NCBI GenBank assembly: GCA_020853105.1
Contig: JADYZM010000030.1
Coordinates: forward strand, 1 to 64,000
Length of the DNA stretch: 64,000 nt
Source: Flavobacteriales bacterium
Lineage (GTDB): Bacteria; Bacteroidota; Bacteroidia; Flavobacteriales_E; Vicingaceae
Direction: 5' to 3'
The translations under genes were made by a program, and so were the position numbers. The notes below the pieces were generated by a model. That model saw nothing but the letters and a program-made list of their open reading frames with translations, was not told the DNA's origin and searched no databases. Of this stretch, positions 17,269 to 21,510 are shown one piece after another (the first letter of the stretch is position 1; every line of letters starts with the position of its first letter).

Positions 17269-17979
17269 ATGAAAAACGAGCAAGATATTCCTAAAATTTT
17301 AATCGTTGAAGACGAAGTTAGAGTTTTGCAGTTCATTAAACAAGGATTGGAAGAAAACGGTTTTGAAGTTGATTATGCTTATGATGGTGAATGTGGAAGA
17401 AAATTAGCCTTTTCTAAAAAATACGATTTGATAGTGTTAGATGTTATCATCCCTCAACTCAATGGATTAGAACTTTGCAAAAAAATTAGAGAAACCGATA
17501 AATCGATAAAAATCTTAATGCTAACAGCTTTGGGCACTTTAAATGACAAACTTGAAGGATTTGAAGCGGGCGTTGATGATTATTTGGTTAAACCCTTTGA
17601 TTTCCCTGAATTACTTGCTCGTGTTAAAGTTTTATTAAAAAGAGCCCCCGGTAATATCGAAGAAAATACCAGCTCAGACCATATTATTCGAGTGGCAGAT
17701 ATGGAATTAAACACCTACACAAAAAGAGTTAAAAGAGGTGGAAAAGAAATTCGCTTAACAGCTAAAGAATATGCTCTCTTGGAATTGTTGTGTATCAATA
17801 AAAACAGAGTATTAAGCAAAGTAGAAATTGCCGAAAAAATTTGGGATATAACTTTTGATACAGGTACAAATGTAATTGAAGTGTATATCAACTTTTTACG
17901 AAAAAAAATTGACCACGACTTTGAGTTAAAGTTACTACATACATTGGTAGGATTAGGATATACCATTAAAGACATTTAA
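17269..17979 (+). CDS. OmpR/PhoB-family response regulator
   Basis: 236 residues. The receiver domain (8-125) has the acidic pair V-E-D-E, phospho-acceptor D58 in L-D-V-I-I-P, the conserved Thr in M-L-T-A and Lys in Y-L-V-K-P-F. The C-terminal winged-helix (about 140-235) has L-T-A-K-E-Y-A-L-L-E-L-L and V-I-E-V-Y-I-N-F-L-R-K-K-I. It is translationally coupled to the kinase (1-base gap). Tandem 11-bp repeats of the kind bound by OmpR-family regulators occur directly after the kinase gene, so the downstream channel operon is its likely target. The signal is unknown. Confidence 0.95.
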   Translation: MKNEQDIPKILIVEDEVRVLQFIKQGLEENGFEVDYAYDGECGRKLAFSKKYDLIVLDVIIPQLNGLELCKKIRETDKSIKILMLTALGTLNDKLEGFEAGVDDYLVKPFDFPELLARVKVLLKRAPGNIEENTSSDHIIRVADMELNTYTKRVKRGGKEIRLTAKEYALLELLCINKNRVLSKVEIAEKIWDITFDTGTNVIEVYINFLRKKIDHDFELKLLHTLVGLGYTIKDI

Positions 17980-17980
17980 C

Positions 17981-19345
17981 ATGAAAATCAGAACTCGGTT
18001 TACCCTTTTGTTTTCCGTTATTGTTGGAGTAATACTCTTCTTTTTCTCATTTTCAATTTATTATCTATCCGAAAATTACAGACAAAACGATTTTCATTCG
18101 CGACTACACGACAGAGGAATAGTTAAACTCAAACTTTTTTTATCAGTTAAAGACAGTAATACCACCTTTTCAAACCCTGAAATCGATGACAATGAATTCC
18201 ACACAATTAACCAAGAAGCTTTTGCATTTTTTGACCACAACAGAATGTTGCTGTATCACGATAAAAACGCAACAATTCCCTCTCAAATAATTGTCTCAAA
18301 AATTACTTCTGAAAATCCGTATCTAAGCAATAAAAACAACATTGAAAGCATCGGATTTACCTATAATTTTAACAATAATAAATACTATGTGGTGTCTTCA
18401 GGGTATGATAAGCACGGAATGAGTTATATAGATAACCTGAAGCAAATTTTATTTTTTAGAGGATTTGTGTTGATGCTAGTAATTTTTATCAGCGGATGGC
18501 TTTATGCAGGCAGGTTCTTGAAGCCTATATCAAATATAGTTCAGCAAGCATCTAAAATCAATTACAGCAATATGTATCAACGCTTGAACTCAAGTAATTC
18601 AAACGATGAAATTGGTCAATTAACCACAACCTTTAATAAAATGTTGGAACGATTGGAAAAATCATTCAATGCCCAAAAAAGATTTGTTTCTAATGCTTCA
18701 CACGAGTTAAGAAATCCGTTAACAGCTATAAATGGGCAAATTGATGTTGCTTTGATGAAAGAAAGAGAAAACGAAGAATATAAAAAAGTGCTCCACACCA
18801 TTTCCAAAGACATTAAAAACATTCGAACCCTTATTAATAATTTACTCGAACTGGCTAATAATGACGAAGTTCTAATTCAGCATTTTGAAGACATAAGAAT
18901 TGATGAAATTCTTTGGGAAGTTAGAGAGGAGATTCTCAAAATAAACCCTGAATATTCTATTTCTATTCATTTTGAAAACCTGTTGGATAACGATAACTTC
19001 CTAATATGCAAAGGAGACAAAAAACTCCTTGAAACCGCTTTCTTAAATGTTATAGATAATGCCTGTAAATTTTCTGAAAACAAAACAGTTGAGGTTAAAA
19101 TTATTTCCACAAAATCAAATATAATATTACACTTTATAGACCAAGGAATTGGTATGCCCGATTCCTTTTTAAATCAAATTTTTGAACCCTTTGCTCGTGG
19201 TAGTAATACCATTGGAATTCAAGGCAACGGAATAGGTCTTTCATTGGTATATAGAATCATAAAACTACATTCGGGAAAGATTTTTATTCGTTCTCAAGTT
19301 GACAAAGGAACCGATGTTGAAATTGTTCTACCAAACATCAGTTAA
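17981..19345 (+). CDS. sensor histidine kinase
   Basis: 454 residues. TM1 is at about 8-28, followed by an extracytoplasmic sensor loop of about 130 residues (30-157), TM2 at about 158-178 and HAMP at 178-232 (R-F-L-K-P-I-S-N-I-V). HisKA has H241 in S-N-A-S-H-E-L-R-N-P-L. The ATPase domain has N-V-I-D-N-A-C-K-F-S (N box), D-Q-G-I-G-M-P (G1), F-E-P-F-A-R-G (F box) and G-N-G-I-G-L-S-L-V (G2). All catalytic motifs are intact. The periplasmic loop has no recognised ligand-binding domain. It is paired with the preceding regulator. Confidence 0.95.
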   Translation: MKIRTRFTLLFSVIVGVILFFFSFSIYYLSENYRQNDFHSRLHDRGIVKLKLFLSVKDSNTTFSNPEIDDNEFHTINQEAFAFFDHNRMLLYHDKNATIPSQIIVSKITSENPYLSNKNNIESIGFTYNFNNNKYYVVSSGYDKHGMSYIDNLKQILFFRGFVLMLVIFISGWLYAGRFLKPISNIVQQASKINYSNMYQRLNSSNSNDEIGQLTTTFNKMLERLEKSFNAQKRFVSNASHELRNPLTAINGQIDVALMKERENEEYKKVLHTISKDIKNIRTLINNLLELANNDEVLIQHFEDIRIDEILWEVREEILKINPEYSISIHFENLLDNDNFLICKGDKKLLETAFLNVIDNACKFSENKTVEVKIISTKSNIILHFIDQGIGMPDSFLNQIFEPFARGSNTIGIQGNGIGLSLVYRIIKLHSGKIFIRSQVDKGTDVEIVLPNIS

Positions 19346-19367
19346 TTTTAAGTTCATTTTAATTTCA
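19346..19367 (+). promoter_or_regulatory. tandem 11-bp direct repeat, probable OmpR-family operator
   Basis: TTTTAAGTTCA (19346-19356) is followed without a gap by TTTTAATTTCA (19357-19367); 10 of 11 positions are the same. Head-to-tail 11-bp repeats are the classic site for a dimer of PhoB/OmpR-type regulators. The pair lies immediately after the kinase stop codon and upstream of the TDT channel operon. Binding by the neighbouring regulator is inferred. Confidence 0.55.
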
Positions 19368-19407
19368 ACGACAATTTCGATTAATTAGTCGTTAAAATTT
19401 TAATTTT

Positions 19408-19440
19408 TTTTAAGTTCAAATTAACTGTGTTTTAAGTCTT
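19408..19440 (+). promoter_or_regulatory. second operator cluster next to the channel promoter
   Basis: TTTTAAGTTCA recurs exactly at 19408-19418, and TTTTAAGTCTT follows at 19430-19440, two 11-bp steps later. A weak -7-like AAACTTTG lies at 19448-19455, so the last box sits where a -33 element would be, as expected for an activator replacing it. The ATG of the channel gene is at 19473. Confidence 0.5.
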
Positions 19441-19472
19441 CATAAGAAAACTTTGTATTGTCAGATTTTCTT

Positions 19473-20552
19473 ATGAAAGAATCAATTTTATATCAAATCA
19501 TAAACGAGCAAAAATTAGCAATAGCAAAACTATTTCCAAGCTATTTTGCCCTAACAATGGCAACAGGAATAGTTTCTATGGCAGCATTTTTAGTTGGAAT
19601 TCCGTTTGTTGGAGAAAGTCTTTTCTACTTAAATATAATCTTTTACATTATTCTTTGGATTCTAATCATATTTAGACTTTTCCTATACCCTAACAATTTA
19701 TTTGCTGACATTTCTGACCACTCAACAGGACCTGGATTCCTGACTATGGTTGCCGGAACAAATGTACTCGGAAGTCAATTTATTATTATAAACCACAATT
19801 ATCTGGTTGCAGAGTTGATGTTTTATCTTGGAATAGCATTATGGATAATTTTAATTTATTCCTTTTTTATTATTATCACCGTTAAACGTGGAAAACCTTC
19901 TCTTGAAAAAGGCATCAATGGTATTTGGTTATTAATGGTTGTGGCAACTCAATCCATTTCAATTTTAGGCACACAACTGGTAAACCACCTTCCTTTTCCT
20001 AAAGAATTAATACTTTTTTTATCACTGGTTTTGTTTTTGTTCGGCTGCTTGCTCTACATCATTATTATTACTTTAATCTTTTACAGACTAACTTTTTTCG
20101 AGCTCCGAGCTGAAGAGTTTGCCCCTCCTTATTGGATAAATATGGGAGCAGTTGCCATAGTTACTTTATCAGGCTCTGTTTTAATGCTGAATGCAGAACA
20201 TTGGGATTTTCTAAATTCGCTACTCCCCTTTTTAAAAGCATTCACTTTAATGTTCTGGGCAACAGGTACTTGGTGGATTCCACTTATTATAGTGCTTGGT
20301 GCATGGAGGCACTTCTATCAACTTATCCTTATTTCTTATCATCCACAATATTGGGGAATGGTTTTCCCTCTGGGAATGTACACTGTTTGCACACTGCGAT
20401 TATCACAAATAACCGGACTCAGTTTTCTTAAAAATATTCCTGACTTTACGGTTTATGTTGCCTTGTTTGCTTGGGTTGTTACCTTTTCAGGACTAATCTA
20501 TAAGATTATTGGAAACAGCATCAAAAATTTAAAAATAATTAATTATAAATAA
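19473..20552 (+). CDS. TDT/SLAC1-family transporter (tellurite resistance/dicarboxylate/anion channel type)
   Basis: 359 residues from ATG 19473; a TTG five codons earlier is not preferred. About ten TM helices fill the protein, starting with [18 protein letters not shown], the conserved opening of the TDT family (TehA, Mae1, Ssu1, SLAC1). Another family feature is [16 protein letters not shown]. These proteins move small anions such as malate, sulfite, nitrate or chloride. The substrate cannot be read from sequence. It heads a three-gene unit behind a two-component system and its probable operator repeats. Confidence 0.85.
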
Positions 20553-20568
20553 CTTAAATTGATTAACT

Positions 20569-21072
20569 ATGAAAACAACAGATGTTACCATCGAAACTCC
20601 ACTAACACCAAAAGAGTTGTTCGATAAACTACGATCAATGACGATCACAAATTTTTCTCAACTTCATGAAGTTCCAAGTGCTGATTATTACGGAGAAGTT
20701 GACAATTTTTCTTTTGACATTATGAATGTTCACTACGGACCCATGAGTTCAGTGCCTTCAATACAAGGTGAAATTGAAGAAGGGATAAACAAAACCACTA
20801 TCAATATTAAAATGGATATTGAACGTCATTATAAATTAGCTCGAAATATGTATTATAGCACACTATTTCCGATTGGAGCTATTGTGTTACTACTAAGTTT
20901 TCTTGTGTTGGGAGGAACGGATTATCAACTACATGGATTTATTTTTTCTGGTTCTTTTATGGCTTGTGCCGTACTTGTTGTAATCCTTACAAAAACCTCT
21001 CTATTAACCACTAAACGCAGAGAACTTAAAAATTTTGCAGCAAAAATTAATGGAATTATTAAAATCAACTAA
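20569..21072 (+). CDS. hypothetical protein with two central TM helices
   Basis: 167 residues, not recognised. An N-terminal about 95-residue soluble part (M-K-T-T-D-V-T-I-E-T-P-L-T-P-K-E-L-F-D-K-L, ending I-E-R-H-Y-K-L-A-R) is followed by two closely spaced TM helices (Y-S-T-L-F-P-I-G-A-I-V-L-L-L-S-F-L-V-L and G-F-I-F-S-G-S-F-M-A-C-A-V-L-V-V-I-L) and a short basic tail. Both ends would be on the same, probably cytoplasmic, side. It lies 16 bases after the TDT channel and 12 before the Cys-cluster sensor. It may be an accessory or coupling subunit of the channel, which is inference from position only. Confidence 0.75.
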   Translation: MKTTDVTIETPLTPKELFDKLRSMTITNFSQLHEVPSADYYGEVDNFSFDIMNVHYGPMSSVPSIQGEIEEGINKTTINIKMDIERHYKLARNMYYSTLFPIGAIVLLLSFLVLGGTDYQLHGFIFSGSFMACAVLVVILTKTSLLTTKRRELKNFAAKINGIIKIN

Positions 21073-21084
21073 TCCCTACTTACC

Positions 21085-21510
21085 ATGAAAACTCAAAACT
21101 GCAAATTCTGTGAAAACTCCTGTATTTTTAATGGAATTGACACTACACAATGGCTTCAAAATACTAACTTTAAAAGTGGTGAAACAATTTTTACGGAAGA
21201 TGATTCTGTAAATGGTTTGTATGTAATGAAAAAAGGTTCTGCCAGAGAATTTTCTTCTGTAGATTTAGTATTAAACGAATCTACATCTCAAATTTCAAAC
21301 GGTGATATTTTTGGACATATTGATTATAGAGGCGAAAAACACATAAGAAGTGCCGTGGCAATAGAAAATTCAGAAATTTGCTTATTTACAAAAGAAAAAT
21401 TGTATGATTTATGTTTAAGCTACACAAACTTATCTCTAAAACTTATCAAATTTTTTGCTGCTGAACTAAGCAAATCTGACCAACGAACCAAAGTAAAATA
21501 TAAAGCATAG
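21085..21510 (+). CDS. cyclic-nucleotide-binding-fold (CRP/FNR-like) protein lacking a DNA-binding domain
   Basis: 141 residues. The N-terminus holds a Cys cluster C6-x2-C9-x3-C13, then a cupin-like effector domain: F-K-S-G-E-T-I-F-T-E-D-D-S-V-N-G-L-Y-V (28-47), M-K-K-G-S-A-R, I-S-N-G-D-I-F-G and a helix ending the domain. FNR/CRP regulators are about 220-240 residues with a C-terminal winged helix; here the protein stops after the dimerisation helix (L-K-L-I-K-F-F-A-A-E-L-S-K-S-D), with no HTH. Further cysteines are C99 and C110. It may be a redox or ligand sensor acting on the channel rather than on DNA. No frameshifted HTH follows, because the convergent gene begins 1 base on. Confidence 0.8.
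   Translation: MKTQNCKFCENSCIFNGIDTTQWLQNTNFKSGETIFTEDDSVNGLYVMKKGSAREFSSVDLVLNESTSQISNGDIFGHIDYRGEKHIRSAVAIENSEICLFTKEKLYDLCLSYTNLSLKLIKFFAAELSKSDQRTKVKYKA

Follow-up and report, generated by a model that had tools for sequence, protein, structure and literature searches.

The closest described counterparts of the operator reported here are bound by response regulators of the OmpR family. The activator CiaR of Streptococcus pneumoniae, a member of this family, recognizes the box NTTAAG-N5-TTTAAG (PMC3091779), the box of PmrA/BasR is CTTAAG-N5-xTTAAT (PMC3973317), and the core site of AgrR, which is of the CusR/CopR/CzcR type, is an inverted ATTACA repeat (PMC7380067). From the Bacteroidota, no classical OmpR-type two-component operator with this motif was found in searches of open-access literature, and operators of this class seem to be little described in the phylum. 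The locus studied here lies in the window, that is, the whole stretch of 64,000 nucleotides that was analysed (Flavobacteriales bacterium, GenBank assembly GCA_020853105.1, contig JADYZM010000030.1). It carries almost the same 11-bp direct repeat as the CiaR sites, likewise adjoining a promoter, and the CiaR recognition helix VVEVYVSKVRKKL aligns with IEVYINFLRKKI of the window regulator. CiaR, however, has Lys at the specificity position and, in its Firmicutes promoters, a pair of boxes ahead of the -10 TATAAT, whereas the window system has Phe at that position, four boxes plus a distal pair, a Bacteroidota -7 element and a different regulon. The window operator probably resembles a CiaR-type operator in its working; the likeness is one of site pattern and need not reflect orthology. 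PmrA/BasR shares with it the TTAA core, the 11-bp head-to-tail half-sites and the OmpR family, and differs in having two half-sites, a regulon for antimicrobial-peptide resistance and enterobacterial promoters. Compared with the inverted ATTACA of AgrR, the window has direct TTAAG repeats, and the target is an anion channel. The elements of the locus are the following.

17269–17979, + strand: OmpR/PhoB-family response regulator (PF00072 and PF00486 above gathering score)
17981–19345, + strand: sensor histidine kinase (HAMP, HisKA and HATPase by domain search)
19346–19367, + strand: distal pair of 11-bp boxes, TTTTAAGTTCA (19346–19356) and TTTTAATTTCA (19357–19367), starting at the first base after the kinase stop codon
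19398–19408, + strand: box1, with TTAAT at 19400–19404, 10 bp before box2
19408–19418, + strand: box2, TTTTAAGTTCA, TTAA invariant in 16/16 loci
19419–19429, + strand: box3, AATTAACTGTG, exactly 11 bp after box2, [T/C/A]TAA[C/G] in 16/16 loci
19430–19440, + strand: box4, TTTTAAGTCTT, promoter-proximal, 11 bp after box3
19439–19450, + strand: left arm of an inverted repeat, TTCATAAGAAAA, a perfect 12-bp repeat with 19466–19477 (RNA fold z -3.1)
19448–19455, + strand: -7 element AAACTTTG (Bacteroidota consensus TAnnTTTG), at a fixed distance to box4
19466–19477, + strand: right arm of the inverted repeat, TTTTCTTATGAA, containing the start codon ATG 19473–19475
19473–20552, + strand: SLAC1/TDT-family anion channel gene, the putative target (PF03595, E 5e-49)
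20569–21072, + strand: 167-aa protein without Pfam family, a conserved gene after the channel gene
21085–21510, + strand: 141-aa cNMP-binding-domain protein (PF00027), a conserved operon member

The first-pass annotation had read 11-bp repeats in this region, the last of them before a weak -7-like motif, as an operator for the adjacent OmpR-family regulator. The repeats at 19346, 19357, 19408 and 19430 and the motif at 19448–19455 are all where it had placed them; its array was incomplete, as box3 (19419–19429) and box1 (TTAAT, 19400) had been overlooked, and once box3 is counted, 19408–19440 consists of three contiguous 11-bp boxes. Could such repeats arise by chance where intergenic DNA is as AT-rich as here (about 20% GC)? 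The single box would fit this explanation, because the exact 11-mer TTTTAAGTTCA is no commoner in the genome than its reversed control (19 copies vs 16), and on its own it is uninformative as a genome-wide marker. The arrangement is another matter: TTAAB-N6-TTAAB-N6-TTAAG occurs once in the window vs 0.03 times on average after shuffling of the window, and the tandem order is not due to chance.

Moreover, the array is conserved. Orthologous Bacteroidota loci, mostly from metagenome assemblies, were found with the channel protein and have the gene order regulator, kinase, channel, 167-aa protein; 16 of them including the window were aligned, among which two pairs are near-duplicates. Their kinase-channel gap reads TTAA[TG]-10/11-TTAA[GT]-11-[TCA]TAA[CG]-11-box4, and the steps from box1 to box4 are 10, 11 and 11 bp. 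At box1, -32/-33 from box4, TTAA[GT] is found in 16/16 loci; box4 reads TTAAG in 12/16, and a TTTG-like -7 motif follows 19–20 bp on in 16/16. Compared with a CiaR-type operator, the 11-bp period agrees, whereas the last base of box3 is C or G ([TCA]TAA[CG]), so that a perfect TTAAG pair is rarely adjacent. Two loci with 58–64% GC in the intergenic DNA still keep the TAA cores. The period of 11 bp is best or joint best in 15/16 intergenic regions (the exception, L060, favours 10 bp, which is the step from box1 to box2), the summed score is 206 at 11 bp and no higher than 177 at any of the other periods between 7 and 16, and the observed score of a locus was matched in only 0–4 of 300 shuffles. 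The repeats are thus head-to-tail and direct with one-turn spacing, as in the OmpR/PhoB family, and they are kept upstream of the orthologous channels, on which the first-pass annotation had made its reading depend. Chance is contradicted by the fixed 10/11/11/19–20 geometry in 16 loci, GC-rich relatives included, by the period and shuffle tests and by a recognition code that held in held-out loci (see below), and its probability is practically negligible.

The distal pair, too, is conserved. In the window its TTAA cores are about 84–85 and 73–74 bp upstream of box4. In the interval from -140 to -36, 14/15 loci have an 11-bp pair (0.15 in shuffles), and 11/15 have one at -86 to -83 from box4 (0.01 in shuffles); many loci have an additional pair near -115 or -125, one helical turn apart. 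Since the DNA between the distal pair and the proximal boxes has no conservation visible by eye, helical phase may be what is kept in the distal-proximal relation. The two sites may cooperate. From 19356 to 19404, between the two box clusters and overlapping the distal boxes, there is also an inverted repeat followed by a T-run, which has a more stable predicted fold than most shuffled versions (z -2.6) and is possibly a weak terminator of the kinase gene; a scan for intrinsic terminators of this gene between the two clusters found none. Upstream of the regulator gene itself, no arrays suggesting autoregulation were seen in the orthologues.

The -7 element of the window has the TTTG, while the TA of the consensus reads AA, and an E. 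coli-type sigma-70 promoter scan gave no match on the + strand. In F. psychrophilum, TAnnTTTG is located from -12 to -5 (PMC9723704), and transcription would therefore start 5 nt after TTTG, near 19460. The last box had been assigned to the -33 position; it is promoter-proximal indeed, and the figure is approximate, for box4 spans about -30 to -20 if the start is 5 nt after TTTG. A protein bound there could block polymerase, so the operator might repress, with the regulator over box4 keeping RNA polymerase out until the signal derepresses the channel. The constant distance to TTTG fits activation instead, and so does the fact that the window has no TTTG at -33; TTTAAG is similarly placed before the -10 in CiaR-activated promoters (PMC3091779), so that repression appears improbable. 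We consider it very probable that this is an activator operator of the OmpR/CiaR type. Phosphorylated regulator dimers would bind the 11-bp boxes with their TTAA core head-to-tail, filling boxes 1–4 next to a sigma-A promoter as well as the distal pair, which lies some five turns of the helix further up, and would activate the SLAC1/TDT channel operon.

The product of 17269–17979 has both a receiver domain and a winged-helix Trans_reg_C domain, as expected of the OmpR/PhoB family. Its best NCBIfam model is TIGR01387 (CusR/CopR/CzcR) with 236.8 bits, below the curated cut-off of 279.2, and membership of this heavy-metal regulator family was rejected on this score; the kinase scored 185.3 bits against TIGR01386 (cut-off 292.55). 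The recognition helix is TNVIEVYINFLRKKI and has Phe at the position of PhoB Arg201, according to an alignment with what we take to be the sequence of the PhoB C-terminal domain. The numbering fits Thr194, Val197, Arg201 and Arg219 of PhoB, in which Arg201 contacts a base (PMC3973317). Across the phylum, regulators that are 44–58% identical to that of the window and have other targets often show the same arrays directly after the kinase gene. At least three boxes at 11 bp were found in 10/50 of these paralogous loci and in none at periods 7–10 and 12–16 (0.01 in shuffles). In a set of 128 loci, 29 had at least three boxes, and in 18/29 the distance from the beginning of the last core to TTTG was exactly 19 bp. 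In 67/128, the 220 bp downstream of the kinase gene contained no tandem pair. The architecture is thus common in the paralogues, not universal. Pairs such as L172, L177, L179 and L181 precede, with the same arrays, various other genes.

The boxes of the paralogues read TTTAA or TCTAA, and in the first set of loci T went with Phe, and C with Tyr, at the position of PhoB Arg201. This code was tested on 80 held-out loci from genomes unused before, counting the loci that have arrays: the Phe loci were T-only in 6/6 (C in 0/19 boxes), the Tyr loci had C in 27/27 (57/77 boxes), and the Lys loci were T-only in 2/2. When 65 loci were pooled, C occurred in 42/42 Tyr loci vs 1/23 non-Tyr loci, where kinship between loci inflates the p-values. 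On a tree built with the residue at the specificity position masked, the residue label switches 8 times, at least 4 of them on supported branches, and there the box agrees in 4/4 independent pairs. CiaR, which has Lys and binds TTTAAG (PMC3091779), agrees with the code as well. These data support the prediction of one box base from one regulator residue (Phe for TTTAA, Tyr for TCTAA), and such covariation links the boxes with the adjacent regulator. Together with the array, the code would make the targets of many such regulators predictable from sequence.

The array could in principle be bound by another regulator, and the operon encodes a candidate, the Crp-like protein of 21085–21510. This protein is reduced to its cNMP-binding domain, with no DNA-binding domain detected, and is kept in the operon. 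The box base, in contrast, tracks the recognition-helix residue of the adjacent regulator across the 65 loci, and the presence of the site tracks the two-component system in 46 genomes: in this family scan, sites with E < 1e-6 were found in exactly the 6 genomes with an orthologous kinase and in 0/40 others. Binding by another regulator is accordingly very improbable. A further 65 channel loci have no two-component system beside them; of these, the site was found in L058 only (E 2.6e-11, untrained) and in 0/64 others. In the L058 genome, the kinase is encoded on a different contig, and this locus, with no kinase gene upstream, has distal boxes too, at -117/-106 and -86.

Furthermore, a sequence model built from 16 sites was run on the window genome. 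Apart from the window site (E 4.5e-9, a training member), the only strong match was C6:15417-15478 (E 1.8e-6, untrained), and the next had E 0.14. The second site precedes a gene of the formate/nitrite transporter family (FNT); its cores are located at -32/-22/-11/0, and its -7 motif reads TTCG. In the relatives searched that have FNT, the gene is inside the channel cluster in 4/4, and wherever the locus was read completely it immediately follows the Crp-like gene. Thus, the FNT gene, located apart in the window genome, appears to have its own copy of the operator, and since it is set apart here and within the channel cluster in relatives, the regulon is supported by two routes. Weak matches of the model in G002:C87, G009:C14 and G015:C64 had no clear target. 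Considering the conserved spacing, the co-occurrence with the two-component system, the FNT site and the held-out covariation, the first-pass attribution is well supported, and we are highly confident that 19346–19440 is the operator of the adjacent regulator, which would activate the SLAC1/TDT channel operon and control the FNT channel in trans. That TDT and FNT, two families of anion channels, would share a regulator offers a handle on the signal.

In addition, we found an inverted repeat around the promoter and the start codon that the first-pass annotation does not mention. With most of the -7 element inside, it runs from the final bases of box4 to the first codons of the channel gene, whose start codon is most likely ATG 19473 rather than the earlier TTG 19458. 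In phage T4, leader hairpins of gene e, soc, 49 and I-TevI hide the start in long upstream transcripts, and a promoter near the left arm gives a translatable short mRNA (PMC3014915). Bacteroidota lack Shine-Dalgarno sequences, and structure at the start region tunes translation in this phylum (PMC6847099). In the window, opening the start region is predicted to cost 13.5 kcal/mol with the left arm, 5.1 without it and 4.6 ± 1.0 with the left arm shuffled. The arm sequences differ in relatives and still pair. Native arm pairs beat exchanged pairs (permutation p about 1e-4 or less, inflated by kinship of the pooled loci), and opening costs more with the native than with a shuffled left arm (Fisher p 3e-6, likewise inflated by kinship; p < 0.05 in 8/16 loci), compared with 4.6% of 87 control gene starts at p < 0.05. 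The hairpin is absent or weak in L049, L054, L060 and FNT, and weaker in the paralogous systems (5/27 at p < 0.05, Fisher 3e-4, with starts chosen automatically), for which we propose no such hairpin; part of the signal could come from kinship of the loci and shared first codons.

Because pairing is retained above chance despite sequence change, it is suggested that read-through mRNA is not translated. The mRNA begun 5 nt after TTTG would be without the left arm and have its start codon free, while mRNA read through from the regulator-kinase genes would carry the left arm, pair the start codon and stay silent. We put this reading a little below an even chance. Instead of forming an RNA gate, the repeat may serve as an operator element in the DNA or simply result from conservation of the first codons, as its arms reach into the -7 element and these codons and ATGTCA-type starts recur in related loci; however, the arm sequences vary between lineages while pairing persists, unlike a protein site, and the control gene starts have no such pairing, which leaves this alternative a real possibility with somewhat less than half of our belief. 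If the hairpin works as proposed, it would be a bacterial two-component counterpart of the T4 read-through block, with the difference that T4 uses phage late promoters and the window a two-component-controlled bacterial promoter with a hairpin that is predicted only.

We tentatively assume, as a conjecture that may well fail, a Bacteroidota-wide module of CusR/CopR-like regulators with four-box arrays 19 bp before TTTG and the Phe/Tyr-T/C code. In its channel operons, a hairpin around the start codon would also enclose the regulated promoter and confine translation to mRNA begun at this promoter, and the signal would probably be connected with the small monovalent anions of TDT and FNT. The channel scores 167.7 bits against PF03595 (gathering score 27.9), which places it in the SLAC1/TDT family, and falls under the cut-off of TIGR00816; no sequence-related solved structure was found for the TDT protein. 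A second regulator, 81% identical to that of the window, is encoded at the end of a 4.7-kb contig (G000:C26:35-739, L126) in an assembly from which its kinase is absent, and could be a true paralogue or come from a contaminating contig. The 167-aa protein (20569–21072), which matches no Pfam or NCBIfam model, follows the channel in most orthologous loci and is often duplicated.
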